Virus record (IMG/VR): IMGVR_UViG_3300020442_001802
Span: 1 to 33,419 of that record
DNA from: a virus
Strand: one strand, 5' to 3'
DNA length: 33,419 nucleotides
Below are positions 8,808 to 29,376 of this stretch, piece after piece. The notes beneath the pieces are model-generated. The model saw only the letters and a program-made list of their open reading frames with translations. It did no database searches and was not told where the DNA came from. The position numbers were made by a program, and so were the translations under genes. How positions within the stretch are numbered: position 1 is the first letter of the stretch; each line of letters starts with the position of its first letter.

Positions 8808-9606
8808 GATCTCAAGAGAGGAAGAACAGTTCATCAAGGACAATATTTCTTTTGGTTTAGACCATTTATCCTCAGAGTTAGACCGCGACCCTAAGTCTCT
8901 GACTAAGTTTATCAAGAAGAAGATTGCCAAAGGTGACATAGAAGAACCTTCTTGGATGCGTTCAAGGGCTGATGAAGAGAGGGCAAAGTACGATCTTACC
9001 TATAGACCATACTGGAAAGAGCTAGAGCAGCAGTTTACCAACGAAGAACTCAAACTTTTTGAGTATCATTGGACCAGAATTATATCTCAGTTCAAAGATG
9101 ACGTTATTCCAACCGAAGAACTGCAAGTTGTTGACCTTATCAAGCTAGAATTACTTATGAACAGAGCATTGAAAGGTAATAAAGATAACCTTGAGCAGAT
9201 ATCCGCTCTAGACGCTCTGATTACGGCTGAGAGGCAACGCGACCCCGACCAGATAGATACAGACCAACTTTTTAATATGGAGCGTCAGGTAGCGTCTCTG
9301 AAAGCCTCACAGGAGTCTCTGAACAAGGACTACCGTGAACTACAAACAAAAAAGAACAGTATGCTCAAGGAGATGAAGGCAACTCGTGAGCAAAGAGTGC
9401 AAAGAATCGAAGACTCTAAGAAAAACTTTACTGCTTGGATGGCACATCTTGTCGCTAATCCTGAGATAACCAAACAGTACGGTGCAGAAATGGAGAAAAT
9501 GCGTTTAGCTATGAAGCAAGAGCAGGAACGACTAGCTAAATTCCATGAATACACCGATGGACAGGTAGATCAACCTTTTCTAACACCAGATACCGTTGAG
9601 GACTAG
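8794..9606 (+). CDS. HTH + coiled-coil protein, possible small terminase, 270 aa
   Basis: Two ATGs are possible. The one at 8794 has GAGGAG about 10 nt upstream; that at 8785 has it 1 nt away. The first 40 residues (REEEQFIKDNISFGLDHLSS followed by SLTKFIKKKIAKG) look like a helix-turn-helix. The centre is helical, and residues about 160-250 form a long coiled coil (VASLKASQESLNKDYRELQT; MKQEQERLAKFHE). DNA-binding N-terminus plus oligomerising helices upstream of TerL fits a terminase small subunit, but four other genes intervene, so this remains a candidate. It overlaps the sigma-like gene by 14 bp. Confidence 0.55.
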   Translation: MKKGRISREEEQFIKDNISFGLDHLSSELDRDPKSLTKFIKKKIAKGDIEEPSWMRSRADEERAKYDLTYRPYWKELEQQFTNEELKLFEYHWTRIISQFKDDVIPTEELQVVDLIKLELLMNRALKGNKDNLEQISALDALITAERQRDPDQIDTDQLFNMERQVASLKASQESLNKDYRELQTKKNSMLKEMKATREQRVQRIEDSKKNFTAWMAHLVANPEITKQYGAEMEKMRLAMKQEQERLAKFHEYTDGQVDQPFLTPDTVED

Positions 9607-9613
9607 GACTATA

Positions 9614-10603
9614 ATGAAAAAAGCTATTATTTTCGGAATTACCGGCCAAGATGGAAGCCATCTAGCCGACCTGTTACTCTCAAAGGATTACCACGTAGTG
9701 GGAATCTCTAGAAGAGCCAGCACTGACAACACACAAAGAATCAAACACATCCTTGGGAACGAAAGGTTCGAGTTGATTCAAGGTGACATTACTGATGCTT
9801 ATTCTGTTATAAATATACTTAAAAAACATGAAGATGTAGATGAAATCTATAATTTAGCCGCACAGTCACATGTAGCAGTGTCGTTCAAGCAACCAGCACT
9901 CACATGGGACATAACAGGCAAGGGCTGTTTAAATATCTTACAGTCTATGGTAGATCTAGAAATTGATGCTAGGTTCTATCAGGCTAGTTCTAGCGAAATG
10001 TATGGAAAGCACTACGATAGAGATCGCGAAGGCAATAAGTATCAAAATGAAGAAACTAAGTTTATGCCTCAGAGTCCGTATGCAATTGCAAAAGTTGCAG
10101 CACACGAACTGACTAGATTGGTAAGAGAAGCATACGATTTACACGCTAGTGCCGGTATTCTATTTAATCATGAAGGTGAACGAAGAGGCGAAACCTTCGT
10201 AACGAGAAAAATTACGAAGTGGATCGGGGACTGGGTTAAGAGCGGTCGCGATCCTAACTTTCCGCAGCTACGTCTAGGCAACTTGGAAGCATTTAGAGAT
10301 TGGGGGTATGCTGGAGATTATGTGGAAGCGATGTGGATGATGCTACAGCAGGATAGTCCACAGGATTATGTTATCTGCACCGGCGAAACTCATACTATTC
10401 GCGAGTTCCTAGATGTAGCTTTCTCATACACTGGAGTTGACGATTGGTCTGATTTAGTAGTTCAAGACCCTGAATTCTATAGACCAGCAGAGGTGGATTA
10501 CTTACGGGGCGATTGCAGCAAGGCAAACAATGTATTGGGATGGACTCCTAAACACAGCTTTGAAGATTTGGTCAAGAAGATGGTAGAACATGATATATCA
10601 TGA
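9614..10603 (+). CDS. gmd: GDP-mannose 4,6-dehydratase, 329 aa
   Basis: ATG at 9614 with AGGA 5-6 nt upstream. Extended short-chain dehydrogenase: NAD(P)-binding GITGQDGSHLADLL (residues 8-21), the active-site segment QASSSEMYG, YAIAK with the catalytic Tyr and Lys, and the family signature NHEGERRGETFVTRKIT. The enzyme converts GDP-mannose to GDP-4-keto-6-deoxymannose, the precursor of fucose, rhamnose and perosamine sugars. It is full length with all catalytic residues. Carried by a phage among packaging genes, it probably alters host surface polysaccharide or supplies a sugar for modification; no partner epimerase or transferase is in the window. Confidence 0.95.
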   Translation: MKKAIIFGITGQDGSHLADLLLSKDYHVVGISRRASTDNTQRIKHILGNERFELIQGDITDAYSVINILKKHEDVDEIYNLAAQSHVAVSFKQPALTWDITGKGCLNILQSMVDLEIDARFYQASSSEMYGKHYDRDREGNKYQNEETKFMPQSPYAIAKVAAHELTRLVREAYDLHASAGILFNHEGERRGETFVTRKITKWIGDWVKSGRDPNFPQLRLGNLEAFRDWGYAGDYVEAMWMMLQQDSPQDYVICTGETHTIREFLDVAFSYTGVDDWSDLVVQDPEFYRPAEVDYLRGDCSKANNVLGWTPKHSFEDLVKKMVEHDIS

Positions 10604-18436: not shown

Positions 18437-19444
18437 ATGTCATTCACAGAAAGACCTAGCGATGAATTCCTCAGTCTTTATAAAAAGACTGGAGATAACG
18501 ATCAGAATGTAGCTTACGCTGCACAGCGTGAGTTTGCTAAAGCATTGGAACTTCCTTTGCGAAAAGGTGTTCTAGTCGGTAATATTCTCGGAAATATTTT
18601 CGAGACTATCAATGTTGAGCCGGGAGCTACCACTGAGTATCCTCTCGACCTCATTTCACCGGGACTCGAAGGTGAGCACGTTGCTTACACCAACCCCGGT
18701 CACGGTCGCATCCCTGAGCGTGCGGTTGAAAGCGATTACGTCATGATCCCAACCTACAGCATTACTTCGAGCATTGACTACTTGCTCCGTTATGCTAAAG
18801 AGGCTCGCTGGGATGTGGCTGGTCGTGCTGCACAGGTCATGGAAGCTGGCTTTGTCAAGAAGATGAACGATGACGGATGGCACACCCTTTTGGCTGCTGG
18901 CGTTGATCGTAACATCTTGGTTTACGACGGTGACGCTACCGCAGGCTTGTTCTCCAAGCGTCTGGTTTCTCTGATGCAGACCGTTATGCGTCGTAATGCT
19001 GGTGGTAACACCGGTTCTGCTAATCGCGGTCGTCTGACTGACCTGTACGTTTCTCCAGAAGCACTCGAAGACGTGCGAAACTGGGGATTGGATCAGGTTG
19101 ACGAAGTAACTCGTCGCGAGATCTACACTGCCGCTGAAGGTGGTGCTCCAATCACCCGTATCTACGGTGTGAACCTCCATGACCTCGACGAGCTTGGCGA
19201 AGGTCAGGAATATCAGGACTTCTTCACGACCGGCCTTGGCGGTGCTCTTGAAGCAAGCGACCTTGAGTTGGTTGTTGGTCTTGATCAGGGTGCTAATGAC
19301 AGCTTCGTTATGCCAATGAAGCAAGCCCTTCAGGTCTATGAAGACCCAAGCCTCCACCGTCAACAGCGAGTTGGCTACTACGGATGGGCTGAACTGGGCT
19401 TTGGTGTCCTTGATAACCGTCGCATTATCCTTGGCTCGTTCTAA
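18437..19444 (+). CDS. Major capsid protein (HK97 fold), 335 aa
   Basis: ATG at 18437 with AAGGAG 9 nt upstream. Composition (Gly/Glu/Leu/Val-rich, very few Cys) and codon use differ from neighbours, with more C-ending codons, as expected for a very highly expressed gene. Segments: helical N-terminus with QREFAKALELPLRKGVLVGN, an E-loop-like stretch EYPLDLISPGLEGEHVAYTN, a spine helix DVAGRAAQVMEAGFVKKMND, LTDLYVSPEALEDVRNWGLD, and a C-terminal beta strand region QQRVGYYGWAELGFGVLDNR. The position at the end of the head module, before a strong terminator, agrees. Confidence 0.87.
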   Translation: MSFTERPSDEFLSLYKKTGDNDQNVAYAAQREFAKALELPLRKGVLVGNILGNIFETINVEPGATTEYPLDLISPGLEGEHVAYTNPGHGRIPERAVESDYVMIPTYSITSSIDYLLRYAKEARWDVAGRAAQVMEAGFVKKMNDDGWHTLLAAGVDRNILVYDGDATAGLFSKRLVSLMQTVMRRNAGGNTGSANRGRLTDLYVSPEALEDVRNWGLDQVDEVTRREIYTAAEGGAPITRIYGVNLHDLDELGEGQEYQDFFTTGLGGALEASDLELVVGLDQGANDSFVMPMKQALQVYEDPSLHRQQRVGYYGWAELGFGVLDNRRIILGSF

Positions 19445-21665: not shown

Positions 21666-24326
21666 ATGAAAGATAGATTATCTCTAAACATAGATAATGG
21701 TCAAGCTGAGATTAGAGAAGCAGTTACCGTTCTTAGGAATGGTGGTACTGCTGCACAGTCTGGACTTGTCGGAATTACAAATGCAACGAGGGATGAAGCA
21801 GATCCTCCAGTTATACCAGAGACTATTTTCAATGTACAGTCAACTGGTGATTCAAATATTAGATTTACTAGTGGTCCATCAAAAGATTATAGAAGTTGTT
21901 TAGAGCTTCTTGGTGTTAGCAATACCCGATCTTCTGGTCTACACTTTAGTTACGATCCAGAGTTTGACGATGCATATATTGATGCTGAAACTGGATACGG
22001 TTACTACGAGCCATGTGTGAACCCCGGAGTGACCGACAAGACTGTTTCTGACATCTCGCTTATTCGCCCAAGCGGTGATGTTGGGATGGAGTTTTCTCAC
22101 ATTTCTCTATCCGAGCGTGGATATGTCAGTATTGGACTAACCAGAGTTCACGAACAGAGACACTTTGAAGCTAACGCACCGCTCACTATTGCTTATGTTT
22201 GCGATAATCATCAAGACAGTGGAACTATCTCTATTCATGAGCAGGCTTCCTCACCAGCAGATCACGCAGATTTTGGCAAACTATATGTCAAACCATACTC
22301 CGTTGGCGGCAGAACTCAGGCAATCTATTTTAAAGATGACGGTGGAACAGAGACCAACCTTGTTAGATCACAAGATCTAGATCCAAATAATTCTGTAGAC
22401 GGTCTAATCTGGGGTGATGCAACAGAGGGTAATACATATGGCGGTTGGTATACGCCAAACTCCAGAACGTCTAGCTCTTCTAGACTAAGAAATACTTATT
22501 ACGGATATGGTGCTGGAAATACTCTTGGTTCTGTATCCGCAACATGCAATACCTTGCTTGGTTATCATGCTGGAAGTGGATTGGGTAATGATGCTAACAA
22601 CAACACCGCCGTTGGATGTAGAAGCCTAACTGGTTTTGCTAATATTGATAACTCTGTAGCGATTGGACGTGACGTTATCGTTGGCGATGACAACACTGCA
22701 ATTCAAAGAGTTATTGCTATCGGTGGAGAACTATTTAATTCAGAGTCTCCAGAAGATGAAGATTTAGCAATTGGTTTTGGTGATTCTCCACTTATTACTG
22801 GTAAGACTGGCGGCTTAAACAGGTCACTCGTTATCAATAATGGTACACTTTCGGTCACTCAGGATGATATTAGTTATGTTTTCACAAATGAGTTTGAGCC
22901 AAGTTCTGCTACTTATGATGCAGTAATAAAAGTTGTAGATGGTGACTCTGACGATTCAGATCCTCCAACCACTACGTTAAAGTTTAAGTTTGAGAATAGT
23001 GATGCAACTAATGACCAAGACTTCTTCATTCTCAATCATAGATTTGCTCCTTCTACTAATAACCCAAGCTATAGTAACCCTACAACTCCCGTTCCATTCG
23101 CAGAGTTAAACGGTGACTTCAGATTAAAAAATGCTATTAGATTTCAAGATGGTACTGCTATGTCAGGCTTGTCATATCTTGGATTCTTGCCCTACAATGC
23201 GTCAACTGGCATTGCGATAGATCTAGAACCAGAGCAAAGTTACTTTAGAGTCGATCTATCTAATGTCCCACTTGCTGGTACGCTAAGTAATAATATCACT
23301 ATTGATAATACTTTTGTTCCAGTACAGCTAGACGGTACTAGTTCCTCAAAACTTGGCAAGATGAGCTTAAATGCTCTAGCAGATTATATTACTGAGGGTC
23401 TAACAAACGTAACTGAAAACTGCAACATTGTTATTGCCAATGCAGACGCTGAAGCAAAAATCAATAAAGCAAAAAATACAAGATCTGTGTTTATAGGTTG
23501 CGATGTAGCAGATGGAGTTGAAGGTTGGCAAAACGCTATTATGATTGGTGCTGACGCTGGTTACAATGCCACCGTTTCAAACCCAACACTCACCTCTCCA
23601 AAACCTGTTATCTTCATTGGTAGTAAGGCCGGTTATAACGCAGACGATATTACAAACAGTATCTTTATTGGAGAAGATGCTGGCAATCAAGCTGCTTCAG
23701 CAGAGCAGTCTATATTTATTGGTCCAAATGCAGGTCAATACGCACAAACCAGTAACTCAATTGGTATTGGTAAGTTTGCTCTATACGGGAACTCTGATAC
23801 ATCTGTTGATGAATCTAATACCGGTAACATAGAGATTGTCACTAATCTTTTAAACAATCAAAGGCTGATGTATAATCAGTCTCTTAGTAGTAGGCTTAAC
23901 ATACAGAATACTATTGCTGGACGATGGGATAGAAGAAACATCGCTATTGGTGATGCTAGATTAAGTCCAGAATCTCCACTTGAGGTTAGACGAGACAGTA
24001 TCATCCATAATGAAAATGCCAACGACTACATTCAGGCTTGGTATTGTGACGATCAGCTTGTTGCATCTATAGATTGTGACGGTAAGTTTGATTCTGCACA
24101 AACATCTTTCTTCTTAGAGGGCTTGCTTGCAGATAACGATCTAAGTGCTACCGCTGGTTTGGCAGCACCTGTATCTGGATTGATGAGTATTTACGAGAAT
24201 GGAGTAGACACGGGCGATCAGGTTTATATCACTAACAGAGATGCAAACTTGACGATGAACAATGGAACATATGTAGTGGCAGGTAAACTAGGGTCTGAGT
24301 ATAGACCTTTATGGGTTAGCTGTTAA
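21666..24326 (+). CDS. Large fibre protein with YadA-like beta-roll blocks, 886 aa
   Basis: ATG at 21666, 3 bp after the previous stop, with AGGA 6 nt upstream. Two beta-roll blocks are visible. One near 285-350 (NTLLGYHAGSG, NTAVGCRSLTG, NSVAIGRDVIVG) and one near 620-705 (NAIMIGADAGYN, PVIFIGSKAGYN, NSIFIGEDAGNQ, QSIFIGPNAGQY). Between them lies FGKLYVKPYSVGGRTQAIYF, a linker motif common in phage fibres. Like its upstream neighbour it has a globular C-terminal domain. The paired arrangement suggests two proteins of one fibre or a duplicated gene. Confidence 0.78.
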   Translation: MKDRLSLNIDNGQAEIREAVTVLRNGGTAAQSGLVGITNATRDEADPPVIPETIFNVQSTGDSNIRFTSGPSKDYRSCLELLGVSNTRSSGLHFSYDPEFDDAYIDAETGYGYYEPCVNPGVTDKTVSDISLIRPSGDVGMEFSHISLSERGYVSIGLTRVHEQRHFEANAPLTIAYVCDNHQDSGTISIHEQASSPADHADFGKLYVKPYSVGGRTQAIYFKDDGGTETNLVRSQDLDPNNSVDGLIWGDATEGNTYGGWYTPNSRTSSSSRLRNTYYGYGAGNTLGSVSATCNTLLGYHAGSGLGNDANNNTAVGCRSLTGFANIDNSVAIGRDVIVGDDNTAIQRVIAIGGELFNSESPEDEDLAIGFGDSPLITGKTGGLNRSLVINNGTLSVTQDDISYVFTNEFEPSSATYDAVIKVVDGDSDDSDPPTTTLKFKFENSDATNDQDFFILNHRFAPSTNNPSYSNPTTPVPFAELNGDFRLKNAIRFQDGTAMSGLSYLGFLPYNASTGIAIDLEPEQSYFRVDLSNVPLAGTLSNNITIDNTFVPVQLDGTSSSKLGKMSLNALADYITEGLTNVTENCNIVIANADAEAKINKAKNTRSVFIGCDVADGVEGWQNAIMIGADAGYNATVSNPTLTSPKPVIFIGSKAGYNADDITNSIFIGEDAGNQAASAEQSIFIGPNAGQYAQTSNSIGIGKFALYGNSDTSVDESNTGNIEIVTNLLNNQRLMYNQSLSSRLNIQNTIAGRWDRRNIAIGDARLSPESPLEVRRDSIIHNENANDYIQAWYCDDQLVASIDCDGKFDSAQTSFFLEGLLADNDLSATAGLAAPVSGLMSIYENGVDTGDQVYITNRDANLTMNNGTYVVAGKLGSEYRPLWVSC

Positions 24327-24342: not shown

Positions 24343-27300
24343 ATGGGAAGACCTAGCCAGTGTAATGTCTGCTGTGGACCTATAGTTGATCCTCCGCCAG
24401 ATCCACCAATCGGTGATTGCGGTAGTGCTATATGTATTGCGTTTATTGACGAGAATACAGGTAATCAAGGTGGTCAGATCAATATTACCGAGAAGGTAAA
24501 CGCTTGGGCCGCTGCGTATCCAGACAGGCTACTGTTTGTTTTAAATGTAGATAACAGGATCGCAAGTCTAAGTTTTCCACCTGAATTTTCTCAAAAAGAT
24601 ACATTCTTTCTTTTGCGTAGTAATGGTCCTCCAGCAAGTGCTCCGGGAACATTTAATAACCAAATAGAAAGATGTAATGGTGATACAGCCAAGGGTAACG
24701 GTAACGATCCTTGGGGTAAAATCGTTGCTATGGTCAACTATTATGAGGCCAATGGTAGGGCTGGAGTTCTTGCTAAGTTTAATGCAGGATCTGAAGTTAG
24801 TATTTTCATTGACGACTCTGGCAGTATGAATCAGAGAGATATAGGTCAAAGAAAAGTTGGTAGTGAGTTTCAATATTTCGGAACGATCAAAAAACTCAGA
24901 GATGACATTTTAGCAACCGGAAGAGAAATTGTCTCTTCGATATACAATGGAAGTGAAGATGTATTTTGCCCATTCGTTACCGCAAATTGTTGCCCTACAG
25001 AGGATACTAATGATATAACAAGTTTGTGCGGTCTTGGTACTCCATGTACAGTTGCAAACATATCTTTCGTCCAACAACCTAGTAATGGGTTGATAAGAGA
25101 ATACTGTGATAATGGAAGCCCCGAATGTGGACCGTGTGTAGATGCAGCTACAGAGGACGAAGATCAAACAGTAGAATACACCGCAAGAATATCTAACTCT
25201 CAAGGTGTAAGCCTAGACCACGAAGTGGTCAACTATTCCTTAGAGGCTTCCGACGACAATGGTCAGAATTGGTTCCTTATACAGTCTTTAGGTTCTGATT
25301 TTAGCAACGTAGAGCAGTCTTTAAACGTTGTCTCCGAAGACGAGTGCCCTTACTTTTTCACAAGTTCAGAGCTTTATGAATTGGTAGGAGACAGGGTTCA
25401 AGGTCAAATTTTTACAGAAGCCGAATGGAACGCATACATTGCCACAGAACCTGCCGACCCACAGGCTGTAGCTGAACAAACAAATTCAACCGTAAAATAT
25501 GCACTTTCAGAACCAATGTCAAGCCCACAAATTAACAATGGGCAAGAGTTTAGGTTTCTTGACGTAGTAATGGTCATAGGTCGCTACAAAACTGACGGGG
25601 TTGGCGGTACTTACCGAAAGAATAAAATTCTATACGCAGTCCATAAATCGTTTAGATTGTTTGATGATGGCAGTCTTGAGCCTTTTGGTCCTATCTTCGG
25701 TACGCCATTACCGTGTATGGGGGTTGAATATGATATATACGGTGGGTCGCAAGGAATAAGTGTACCATCGTGGGACTTTGAAGCGTTTGTTTCTATAGAC
25801 GCTGCGGCAAAACCAGATCCTGACGGAACATTTCGAGCGGTTGCCATCGGATTTACTGTGCAAAATTCATTGGCGGGTCAGCACCCTTTTGTGTTTTTTC
25901 CTGAACGAACGCTCCTTGCGGGTGGCGGGAGTGCGATATTCGAGACACAACCCAGCAATGCTGAACAAGCTGGCTTTGGTAGATGTGTAGCTTTTAGTAA
26001 AGAAGAGGGAGGATATCCTAAACAGTTAGTCGTTGGGGATATAGGAAAAATCATCGTGTATGACATTTCGGATGCTGGCTTTATAACAAACGAGCTTGGT
26101 GTCAGTGATTATACTAGTAGAAGAGAAATAACCACCTTCGGTACTTCAAATGTCTTCGTACCTAATAATCCTCGGTCGATTTCTGTTTCCCCCGCCTTTT
26201 ACGATTCTGAATTTGATAAATATTACTACAGAATAGCAGTAGGGTGCTGGTCTCATCGAACCAACACTTCATATGCCCACTTGCTTCTTTTTAAATCACA
26301 ACGTAAAGAAGGCGGCCTCACCCCAGATACGATAACCCTAATAGGTCAATACAGAGATACTGAAGGCGGATACAGAAATAATATATTCGGTAGGTTTGTC
26401 ACAATAGATAATTCTGAAAATTCTGTAATTCAGGTTTCTGATTATGATGAAGATAATGAAAAGAATAGACTTTTACTATTTCGGTATTCAAACGATGTTC
26501 TTACGCTGATAGATTCTATATCAGACGATGACTCGTTTCAATATTTAGCGGAATCGTTCATGTCTAGAGAAAACGATAATCCTGCCACTAGAATTCACAT
26601 CGCACTAACTGGTTTCGATGCGTCATCTCGCAATTATTTTGAAACCTACGAGTCGCAGAATGGGCAATTTTCTCCAACCACTGCTGTAAATAGAATTAGT
26701 TCAGCCGAGTTGCAACCAAGAGATGGTACTGCTTTATGGGGTGGTTTCTTTCCTGAAGGTGGAGCAACAGATAAGACCGCTTCATGGGTTGTTTATAGTG
26801 CAAGCCAAACCAATGTTTACGATGCCACCTTCGCTTCTTATGACCCCTCTCGCACACCGTCTATACAGTCTGTTCGCAGAAACACTTCCGCAAACGTGTG
26901 TGGCGACTTCACCTTGGAACAAGTTAACGAGTCCTGCAACAGAAAAATTTACAACAGACTTTTTAGAATTAAAGCGGTATCAAATTCAGACCCTTCGTTT
27001 GTTGCAACCTCTTCCTCGTTTCAATTGTTTGAGTGGGAGGTAGTTAGTAGCACTGATGATCCTATTGATCCACCTTCGTCAGATATAAACTTTAACGGAT
27101 TTTATAAGTTTCAATCTTTAGATGAGGCCGTAAACTCTGACGGAAACTTTGTATCAAATGATACTTACTCTGGGGCACCGGACATTCCGGTTACTCCAGA
27201 GGGTGAGATTTGGACTTTGGCTTCATCTGCCGAGGGCAAAGTACATGCTGTTTCAATCTGTACCAATGACGACAGTAGAAAAGTAGTTGTTTATTGGACC

Positions 27301-29376
27301 AGTTACGGCAGTCATAAAGTCCTAGCAGAGATATATCCTGATCCCGATCATAATCCACCCAACACCAGATCGTCATATGGTTTTGGTTATTCCCTTGCGT
27401 TAAACAGGAGAGGTAACTATCTCTACATTGGTTGCCCATCCACGGCTCGGGAGCCCTCTAAAGTCTTGGTTTATAAGTGGAACCTAGACAATTTTGGCGA
27501 CATTTTCGATACTGCGTCAGAACCAGTCGGTCAATATGAGCTTTATGACGTAATTGACGTTTCAACCATTGGCGAAGAACTTAATAAATTATTCCAATTC
27601 CAAGGTTTTGGATCTTCTATAGATGTTCTTGATGCGTCAGATAGCACAGGAACAGAAGGCTCAAGGTGGATTGCGATTGGTTCTATTTTAGGGGAATGTG
27701 TACGCCTTTTTGAGTATCGACCCTCAGAAACCCCCAAGTTTCTCTACATCAAAGGTGCAGATACTGAATCGGGAGAAGCAAAACCTTCTACAATGGGAAT
27801 TACTAATGATTGGCCTTACGGAAACGACCGGAGCAATTTTGCTGCTCGTGTAAAAATTCGACCGTATGAAAACTATAACGGAGACGGGACCAAGCCAATT
27901 ATTGCAGTGTCTGCTCCCGGATATTATTCCCCCGATCCCGGACGTATAGTATTTATCAAACATTTCGGAGATCAGTGGAGAACTGTTTTCAAAGAGATTA
28001 ATAAAGACGACATCTACAATCGTTTTTCTGGGGAGCTTGAGGAAGTCGGCAACAACGCAAAAATTGGATCTTCAATATGCTGGATTGAATCAACGGGTTT
28101 CCCCAATGAGCAAGATCCAGCCGTTTACAATACGTTACTTTTTTCAGTACCGGGATGGGATGCCACCAAAGGCCAGATTACAACAACATATACTGGTTTC
28201 CAAATATTGGTTAGTTTTGCCGAGGAGAGCAATGTTCCCGTCCTTCGTATTCTTAAGGGACCGGGACTTCATAAAAATTTCGCGGTTGGAAAATTTCGTT
28301 TCAACCTGTCTCAAAAACCCTTCTATATACGGGTTGCCGGTGCAGGAGGTGAAATTGGTGATGGTTATCTCACCAGAGGCCCAAGTGACGATTTCTTTCA
28401 GAAGAAGAACACCGATCTAAAAAATATTCATATTTTTGCAGACAGGCAGTCTCTAGGAAACCCTAACATCCTTTACACACCAGTGTTATCTGGAAATTAT
28501 AATGCCTTCGGTAACGATGCTGGAATTACAGACTCCACAAATACCTCTTCCGCACAAATTGAACGCAGCTTCATAACCATACCCCTATACCCCCAAACCT
28601 CGTATGGTCCGACCTTTGCAGCTATTGGGGTAGAAGAGGACATGGAAATCCCGATTTATCCTTCCCTTCGCGATGGCAGTCCAAACCCCATTGGGGCGTT
28701 GAGTGTGTATGAATCTAACCCAGAGGCTCATTGTCTAATAACTGCCTCAGAACTGGCCCCGGCAAACCCGACCGCCTCAGAAGCCTTGGGAATTAAAGTA
28801 AAGTATAAACAATCCGACACAAGCACTGTCGATGTGAGAAACTTGAGATTTGATCGACCACCTTCAACTTCTACATTTATTCCTGCTAACCTTATTCAAG
28901 AAGTAGAGCTATCTCTAATCAGTGATTTTAATTATCCAAACGGTCAAATCAATTATACAAACTGGTTTATATCTAAGAATGGTGGCAGTTTTGAAGACTC
29001 AGGTCAATCCGCACAAAACCCGATTACTATCCCCATCCAGCCGCAAGATTATTTTTTAGTAAGTGCTAAATCTTCAAGTCAGGATATACCAACATTCACT
29101 TTGACATGCCTTGAACAGCCCGGACTCAATCAAATAGCAACCGGAGTGATCCTTCTAGTAAACGGTGCCACCAAATTCGTTTTCTTCAACCAATCAATCG
29201 AGGTTGCTGAAAATGCACAAGTTGAGATTGTGAGATATGCAGGTGATAGATGTGTCGGTGGTGGTCTAACTCAGGAATTCTATGACGTGAATGGACAGGG
29301 GGTTACAAAGGGTCATACATTTACCATGAATGGTGACAAGACAGTTAGAACTAGGGCTTACTGTGTATTCGCATAA
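24343..29376 (+). CDS. Giant adhesin-like protein: vWA site plus FG-GAP-like blades, 1677 aa
   Basis: ATG at 24343 with GAGG 6 nt upstream. The N-terminus is Cys/Pro-rich (CNVCCGPIVDPPPDPPIGDC). Residues about 150-215 carry a vWA-type MIDAS, FIDDSGSMN (D157, S159, S161), in a Rossmann-like alpha/beta region. From about 440 to 1290 there are recurring segments that resemble FG-GAP/beta-propeller blades: FGRCVAFSKEEGGYPKQLVV, YGFGYSLALNRRGNYLYIGC, FGSSIDVLDAS...WIAIGS, PIIAVSAPGYYSPDPGRIVF. The C-terminal 300 residues are beta-rich and end RTRAYCVFA. Located in the fibre block, it is probably a surface adhesin; domain calls are by eye. Confidence 0.72.
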   Translation: MGRPSQCNVCCGPIVDPPPDPPIGDCGSAICIAFIDENTGNQGGQINITEKVNAWAAAYPDRLLFVLNVDNRIASLSFPPEFSQKDTFFLLRSNGPPASAPGTFNNQIERCNGDTAKGNGNDPWGKIVAMVNYYEANGRAGVLAKFNAGSEVSIFIDDSGSMNQRDIGQRKVGSEFQYFGTIKKLRDDILATGREIVSSIYNGSEDVFCPFVTANCCPTEDTNDITSLCGLGTPCTVANISFVQQPSNGLIREYCDNGSPECGPCVDAATEDEDQTVEYTARISNSQGVSLDHEVVNYSLEASDDNGQNWFLIQSLGSDFSNVEQSLNVVSEDECPYFFTSSELYELVGDRVQGQIFTEAEWNAYIATEPADPQAVAEQTNSTVKYALSEPMSSPQINNGQEFRFLDVVMVIGRYKTDGVGGTYRKNKILYAVHKSFRLFDDGSLEPFGPIFGTPLPCMGVEYDIYGGSQGISVPSWDFEAFVSIDAAAKPDPDGTFRAVAIGFTVQNSLAGQHPFVFFPERTLLAGGGSAIFETQPSNAEQAGFGRCVAFSKEEGGYPKQLVVGDIGKIIVYDISDAGFITNELGVSDYTSRREITTFGTSNVFVPNNPRSISVSPAFYDSEFDKYYYRIAVGCWSHRTNTSYAHLLLFKSQRKEGGLTPDTITLIGQYRDTEGGYRNNIFGRFVTIDNSENSVIQVSDYDEDNEKNRLLLFRYSNDVLTLIDSISDDDSFQYLAESFMSRENDNPATRIHIALTGFDASSRNYFETYESQNGQFSPTTAVNRISSAELQPRDGTALWGGFFPEGGATDKTASWVVYSASQTNVYDATFASYDPSRTPSIQSVRRNTSANVCGDFTLEQVNESCNRKIYNRLFRIKAVSNSDPSFVATSSSFQLFEWEVVSSTDDPIDPPSSDINFNGFYKFQSLDEAVNSDGNFVSNDTYSGAPDIPVTPEGEIWTLASSAEGKVHAVSICTNDDSRKVVVYWTSYGSHKVLAEIYPDPDHNPPNTRSSYGFGYSLALNRRGNYLYIGCPSTAREPSKVLVYKWNLDNFGDIFDTASEPVGQYELYDVIDVSTIGEELNKLFQFQGFGSSIDVLDASDSTGTEGSRWIAIGSILGECVRLFEYRPSETPKFLYIKGADTESGEAKPSTMGITNDWPYGNDRSNFAARVKIRPYENYNGDGTKPIIAVSAPGYYSPDPGRIVFIKHFGDQWRTVFKEINKDDIYNRFSGELEEVGNNAKIGSSICWIESTGFPNEQDPAVYNTLLFSVPGWDATKGQITTTYTGFQILVSFAEESNVPVLRILKGPGLHKNFAVGKFRFNLSQKPFYIRVAGAGGEIGDGYLTRGPSDDFFQKKNTDLKNIHIFADRQSLGNPNILYTPVLSGNYNAFGNDAGITDSTNTSSAQIERSFITIPLYPQTSYGPTFAAIGVEEDMEIPIYPSLRDGSPNPIGALSVYESNPEAHCLITASELAPANPTASEALGIKVKYKQSDTSTVDVRNLRFDRPPSTSTFIPANLIQEVELSLISDFNYPNGQINYTNWFISKNGGSFEDSGQSAQNPITIPIQPQDYFLVSAKSSSQDIPTFTLTCLEQPGLNQIATGVILLVNGATKFVFFNQSIEVAENAQVEIVRYAGDRCVGGGLTQEFYDVNGQGVTKGHTFTMNGDKTVRTRAYCVFA

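Follow-up and report, generated by a model that had tools for sequence, protein, structure and literature searches.

A long reading frame downstream of the capsid gene raises the question as to what this virus builds from it. A first-pass annotation had seen in its product a vWA-type metal site and FG-GAP-like propeller blades, and had likened the whole to the domain set of integrin alpha chains. The window analyzed here is the entire virus record of 33,419 bases, in which the 1,677-residue frame reported at 24343-29376 is indeed a single, intact plus-strand ORF with an ATG start. The window protein (here P0001) looks like an exchangeable host-recognition protein of a marine-type phage. More specifically, we favor, at a probability of about 60%, a protein of modular build that is exposed on the virion, contacts the host, and bears exchangeable propeller heads.

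Gene order and phage group

P0001 lies after a gene run that includes a terminase, a head protease, a portal-like protein, a scaffold-like protein, the capsid protein, and two long fibre-like ORFs. P0001 and the parts of this run used for comparison are as follows.

18437..19444, plus strand: probable major capsid protein gene with a marginal HK97-type match, used as the synteny anchor
21666..24326, plus strand: 886-residue structural gene upstream of P0001, whose homologues (about 47-55% identical) lie immediately upstream of family members
24343..29376, plus strand: the whole P0001 ORF, 1,677 residues, proposed to encode a modular host-contact protein of the virion; 18 other viral contigs hold syntenic relatives

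The capsid gene has a weak NCBIfam capsid match (E 0.21) and matches the major head protein of Bacillus phage G (E 2e-6), a distant match and the only one among 50,697 phage records. Its relatives occupy at least 598 viral-contig stretches, so this phage group is common and is without a close cultured relative among those 50,697 records. P0001 as a whole had no match in Pfam, in NCBIfam, or among PDB sequences, none by tblastn in the same 50,697 phage records, and, with exact peptides, none in the viral contigs; a PHROGs search gave nothing beyond one chance match (E 0.19). A search for a host in genome contigs with alignment A3 returned 41 stretches that fit a pattern, none of them a relative.

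Relatives of P0001 were reached through gene order. In a scan of 80 capsid loci, 8 proved to have a homologue some 5 kb further downstream; many of the remaining loci stop short of that point. Two further scans brought the total to 19 other viral contigs. All are syntenic except one (L188), in which the homologue lies in another context.

The same gene run bears on where in the virion P0001 would sit. One alternative is that it decorates the head or neck rather than serving as a tail adhesin, its propellers binding environmental glycans or debris instead of a receptor. Proximity to the capsid gene would also fit a head or neck fibre: directly after the capsid gene, 19571-20050 matches Pfam PF23140 (Gp80, "Podophage GP4 fiber I protein"; E 5.3e-21) and also phrog_240, "head protein," and the two long fibre-like ORFs and P0001 follow. 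Against this, 20062-21663 matches a tail spike family, and in cyanophages the genes for the homologous domain, described below, mostly have short tail fibre and tail collar genes next to them. We regard the alternative as unlikely.

Several other features of the window were recorded. The two ORFs that follow P0001 (29422-33417) share repeated VSG-type fibre segments. A near full-length GDP-mannose 4,6-dehydratase-like gene lies at 9596-10603 (TIGR01472, E 1.1e-114, under the cut-off of that model). On the minus strand, 663-1421 matches PF17338 (GP88; E 1.6e-32); the left 6 kb that holds it has a GC content of about 0.45-0.46, compared with about 0.40 in the next stretches.

The N-terminal head and the DDSGS domain

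The N-terminal part of P0001 contains the following features.

24343..24435, plus strand: Cys/Pro-rich head, residues 1-31 (MGRPxxCxxCC...C...C), a proposed anchor, from alignment A2
24424..24987, plus strand: Rossmann-type, MIDAS-like domain, residues ~28-215, from the AF2 model, reciprocal HMMs, and BFVD matches
24448..24453, plus strand: D36-E37, closing the first strand; D36 is conserved in all 37 aligned sequences
24811..24825, plus strand: DDSGS, residues 157-161, resembling MIDAS motif 1, from sequence, conservation, and the AF2 model

The Cys/Pro-rich N-terminus described in the first-pass annotation is a family trait. Residues M1, G2, R3, P4, C7, C10, C11, and C26 are invariant in alignment A2, and [MV]GRP followed by a cysteine cluster of the CxxCC or CxCC type is present in 17 of the 18 family proteins listed, the sole exception being L188, where the domain stands in its different context.

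The DDSGS motif is likewise present as described. In shuffles of P0001, the loose pattern D.S.S is expected in 63% of cases and D[DNE]SGS in only 1.8%. Across 37 aligned domain sequences, an alignment that leaves out the divergent relatives L197 and L198 (both of which are without the site), D36, R62, and S161 are invariant, D157 and E205 are each found in 35, and S159 is found in 34. Conservation of D157, S159, and S161 shows that the motif is not a chance occurrence. AlphaFold predicts residues 24-235 with high confidence (pLDDT 88.8, pTM 0.88) as a Rossmann-type alpha/beta domain of about 190 residues with alternating strands and helices.

This domain is shared with marine cyanophages. A tblastn search of phages with the first domain of P0001 found no match at E 10. 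Six viral stretches came from a DNA search with the degenerate pattern F[VI]D[DE]SGSM, and one of them (L006) aligns with P0001 beyond the motif. Searching with the L006 domain identified the same domain in 52 phage records, cyanophages among them; the Listeria and Staphylococcus rows were weak. An HMM of cyanophage-type sequences that excludes P0001 (A1, eight rows, one of them the L006 sequence found through the motif of P0001) matches P0001 among the window ORFs with an E value of 2.4e-8, and in the reverse direction an HMM of the P0001 family finds loci of the cyanophage type, the lowest E value being 2.7e-11. With residues 24-235, the top two BFVD hits, both at probability 1.00, come from cyanophages and are virion structural proteins (E 1.9e-6 and 2.7e-5). 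Taken together, the reciprocal profiles, the AlphaFold confidence, and the BFVD matches place DDSGS in a real, shared domain, and the reciprocal profiles and shared invariant residues assign the N-terminal domain of P0001 to a family found in virion structural proteins of the Kyanoviridae.

The Kyanoviridae members, such as those of S-PM2 (YP_195256.1) and ACG-2014i (YP_009140820.1), share the pattern C-x3-[VI]IDE ... YPxR ... RDNG ... W ... DxSGSM ... E. They differ from P0001 in that the aligned domains are without the Cys-rich MGRP head and are followed by other downstream parts. Eleven named phage records were examined. In 9 of them the matching gene is annotated "virion structural protein," and 8 of the 9 directly adjoin a tail-fibre or tail-collar gene. 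The other two records are AG-345-F15, which carries no annotation, and P-SSM2, where the match is split over two ORFs. We observed that in both the MIDAS-like domain extends over two neighboring ORFs with a degraded DxSGS (L016, 3608-4823, for AG-345-F15; L017, 7626-8814, for P-SSM2), and that one of the two P-SSM2 ORFs bears the annotation "L-shaped tail fiber protein assembly."

Is this a vWA domain? The D-x-S-G-S site does lie in a predicted Rossmann-type alpha/beta domain; by Pfam and by motif order, the assignment to vWA in the strict sense is not supported. In vWA domains, MIDAS motif 1 (DxSxS) follows the first strand. In the model of P0001, DxSGS follows strand 151-157, and strands 30-35, 63-69, and 88-91, along with several helices, come before it within the domain, so the motif falls in the domain's second half. 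PF13519 matched nowhere in the window at E<=10, although the same model was positive in 12 of 14 control genomes; divergence could hide a member. Residues 24-235 matched no Pfam family at all, and VWA_2 was touched by a single one of the 37 domain members (E 0.18). Comparison with solved structures placed no vWA chain among the 50 entries listed, which we do not read as exclusion. The first domain of P0001 is therefore not an ordinary vWA domain.

One possibility is that a Rossmann-type enzyme, such as an isochorismatase-like cysteine hydrolase, was the ancestor of the domain, which would by now have become a structural adaptor of the virion, with a structural role for the SGS motif. Isochorismatase-like proteins are among its best solved matches (Z 4.4-6.8), including 8rkz (Z 6.8, rmsd 4.2, 147 aligned), YcaC 4wgf (Z 5.5), the nicotinamidase 6kua (Z 5.4), and 3hb7 (Z 5.4). 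The position of D36, after the first strand, also agrees with the catalytic Asp position of that family. The likeness is weak, since all of these Z scores are below 8 and may reflect merely a common arrangement, and the top match is an uncharacterized protein (3rag, Z 7.0). In addition, the second site of these hydrolases is a catalytic Cys, where the phage domain has DxSGS, and there is no sequence match. We consider this descent doubtful, if a respectable minority view.

A less probable alternative is that the domain is a circularly permuted vWA and that P0001 is a metal-dependent adhesin resembling an integrin I domain, in which an Mg/Mn MIDAS formed by D157, S159, S161, and D36 would engage an acidic group of the host while the propeller and the Ig-like domain act as support. 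The near invariance of the four residues speaks for it. When a profile of the phage domain was compared with all PDB chain sequences, only four matches were obtained up to E 10 (E 0.11-1.6): 4jdu, 4rck, CobT 21vt, and 3ibs, which is BatB, one of the Bat proteins that we take to be vWA proteins. The matched motif lies near the chain N-terminus in 4jdu, 3ibs, and 4rck (residues 7-52) and at residues 57-89 in 21vt, compared with the second half of the phage domain, a shift that a permutation would produce. A vWA domain and MIDAS are described for CobT in PMC8651126. It is for these four matches, CobT and Bat among them, that we keep this alternative, although their E values are not significant and they span just 23-38 residues around the motif. 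Besides the Pfam and solved-structure results given above, the variability of the site also argues against it. The site reads FVNTTNSM in L102, FVDTTNSM in L103, YVNDAGSM in L131, and FVDDSDSL in L104, all syntenic relatives, and is lost in L197, L198, and the cyanophage P-SSM2. Were a metal site essential for binding, decay of this kind would not be expected. Of the other profiles compared with PDB sequences, A1 found no match and A3 found one (E 1.3), which is not a vWA protein and was taken as chance.

The Ig-like domain and the propeller cassette

Beyond the DDSGS domain, P0001 is divided as follows.

25042..25332, plus strand: Ig-like domain part 1, residues 234-330 (AF2 strands 239-328, high pLDDT)
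25345..26907, plus strand: loop insert of the Ig-like domain, residues ~335-855, a putative diverged 7-bladed propeller by position and homology
26908..27042, plus strand: Ig-like domain part 2, residues 856-900 (AF2 strands 856-900, high pLDDT), aligning with the second part in relatives
27145..28212, plus strand: second propeller-like region, residues ~935-1290 (hhalign 36.9 over 905-1310; blast matches to relatives weak)
27385..27483, plus strand: best FG-GAP-like blade, residues 1015-1047, by repeat HMM
28213..29373, plus strand: C-terminal region, residues 1291-1677, with no relative found

In the AF2 model, strands 239-328 and 856-900 come together across the insert to form one Ig-like domain. 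Solved Ig-like structures match both parts together, in a span from 234 to 895 that bridges the insert (9jtz, Z 8.8, rmsd 2.9, 94 aligned; 9jz1, Z 8.8; 9jzp, Z 8.6). In three of the 19 contigs (L103, L102, and L124), the Ig-like domain is uninterrupted, with no insert.

What occupies this position in several family members is an FG-GAP propeller of the PF14312 type. Pfam FG-GAP_2 exceeds its cut-off in the syntenic proteins of L182, L131, and L184 (E 1.2e-13, 9.7e-22, and 1.3e-19), where the repeats occupy the same position as the P0001 insert, and L182 and L131 have seven repeat starts each. Of the 19 contigs, 8 have FG-GAP-type repeats of at least 50 bits within the family ORF (L104, L182, L185, L179, L184, L131, L212, and L201); in L104, L184, and L185 this ORF runs off the end of the contig. 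Four further contigs (L111, L114, L180, and L186) encode a short ORF with the head and N-terminal domain alone. The remainder are L197 and L198, which have diverged, L203, a fragment, and L188, with its different context. The insert also changes place. It lies between residues 327 and 868 in L212. In L201 an earlier loop holds it, with residues 312 and 1231 as its flanks, and the later loop is closed; the local alignment scores behind this difference are 125 and 72, against maxima of 46 and 48 in 50 shuffles.

An insert that sits in a loop, is absent from other relatives, and lies at a different loop in L201 indicates, by comparison of sequences, that the propeller travels as an exchangeable cassette; the new element is its insertion into a loop of an Ig-like domain. 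Presence, absence, and position are observed states, to which any direction of gain or loss would be our inference. The combination of Rossmann-type domain, propeller, and Ig-like domain is not unique to P0001 and recurs at the same position in several uncultured phages. FG-GAP_2 (PF14312) proteins of other phages, such as the "FG-GAP repeat" protein of LR797314.1 downstream of a tape measure gene, have the same type of repeat and a tail-gene location; the propeller of the P0001 family differs in lying inside an Ig-like domain behind a Rossmann-type domain, and the repeats of P0001 itself are too diverged for Pfam. The three cyanophage-type records searched for FG-GAP_2 (L019, L050, and L084) had no match.

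Two related observations concern repeats outside this position. In L188 (3-6041 and 7991-11446), the domain follows Pro/Thr-rich linkers, and an ORF two genes upstream has FG-GAP-type repeats (390.7 bits) flanked by polyproline stretches. On the L212 contig (G008, a 166.8-kb record), a second frame of 4,414 residues also matches FG-GAP_2.

For P0001 itself, the blades reported earlier are only partly recovered. Pfam FG-GAP finds none. A repeat HMM built from four relatives scores 12.4 bits, all from residues 1015-1047, compared with 6.8 for the best of 500 shuffles. Aligned with hhalign to the relatives' propeller profile, residues 905-1310 score 36.9, above 30 shuffles (at most 21.7) and 15 other window proteins (at most 19.2), a modest signal. 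Residues 335-860 score 15.4, within the range of 30 shuffles (at most 22.3), and pLDDT in the AF2 model is mostly below 50 across the roughly 520-residue insert at 335-855. Since the insert's own signal does not exceed that of shuffles, a propeller there rests on position and homology. We infer that P0001 probably carries two diverged propellers, with more confidence by sequence for the second and by position for the first. Two other results were set aside: an iterated repeat HMM, with which P0001 scored about 32 bits, was rejected as circular because the profile absorbs P0001's own blade, and Foldseek propeller matches of a 905-residue model fell in stretches at pLDDT below 50 (E above 0.004).

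Integrin likeness and a proposed host-contact role

The likeness to an integrin alpha headpiece is one of parts: a 7-bladed FG-GAP-type propeller, an Ig-like domain, and an alpha/beta domain bearing DxSxS. The Ig-like domain of P0001 is matched by the integrin headpiece 8w30 (Z 5.0, rmsd 3.3, 98 aligned). According to PMC3192720, the vWA domain of integrins interrupts the propeller between blades 2 and 3, and the blades carry a Cage motif (aromatic-aromatic-G-aromatic-X13-20-P-X2-15-G) as well as DxDxDG Ca loops. Unlike in integrin alpha, the alpha/beta domain of the phage protein comes first, and it is the Ig-like domain that hosts the propeller. The strict Cage motif has no match in P0001 or in eight relatives or neighbors. 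D.[DN].[DN]G is absent from the P0001 blades, the one match, at residue 914, lying outside them and being of a kind found in 119 of 1,000 shuffles; it is absent from L182, L131, L184, L185, and L212 and occurs once each in L179 and L201. Given the different order and nesting and the absence of both motifs from the blades, the proposal of an integrin alpha domain set is not supported: the two share parts, without likeness in sequence or in how the parts are ordered. In the literature searched, whose coverage did not extend to most subscription journals and preprints, this domain combination was not found in a phage.

The reading that we favor is that of a modular host-contact protein exposed on the virion. 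In this model, the Cys-rich N-terminus and the Rossmann-type, MIDAS-like domain would form a family-wide anchor or hinge, and the Ig-like domain a scaffold with a 7-bladed FG-GAP-type propeller inserted into one loop. This propeller and the second, C-terminal propeller-like region would present an exchangeable receptor-binding surface. Host range could then change whenever the propeller cassette is swapped, lost, or moved, with the N-terminal ~330 residues and the position of the gene remaining as they are. Two observations weigh against this model: the insert of P0001 is unrecognizable as a propeller by sequence and its model is of low confidence, and L111, L114, L180, and L186 retain the N-terminal domain alone, so that domain must serve some use without a propeller.

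A bolder version, in which a MIDAS domain with swapped halves and a mobile FG-GAP propeller in Ig-like loops make up an independently assembled viral counterpart of the integrin head, with metal-switchable and rapidly exchangeable host recognition, is a long shot. If it were true, a halves-swapped MIDAS domain, so far unnamed in the libraries searched, would be widespread in tail proteins of marine phages. A shared, unnamed domain links an uncultured and well-populated phage group (at least 598 capsid-related stretches) to proteins of the tail-fibre region in marine cyanophages. The propeller cassette, which may be present, absent, or in either of two Ig-like loops, would offer a concrete route by which host range changes. 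Because the domain also occurs in S-PM2 and other cyanophages, cultured phages offer a way to test its fold, any metal binding, and its role.
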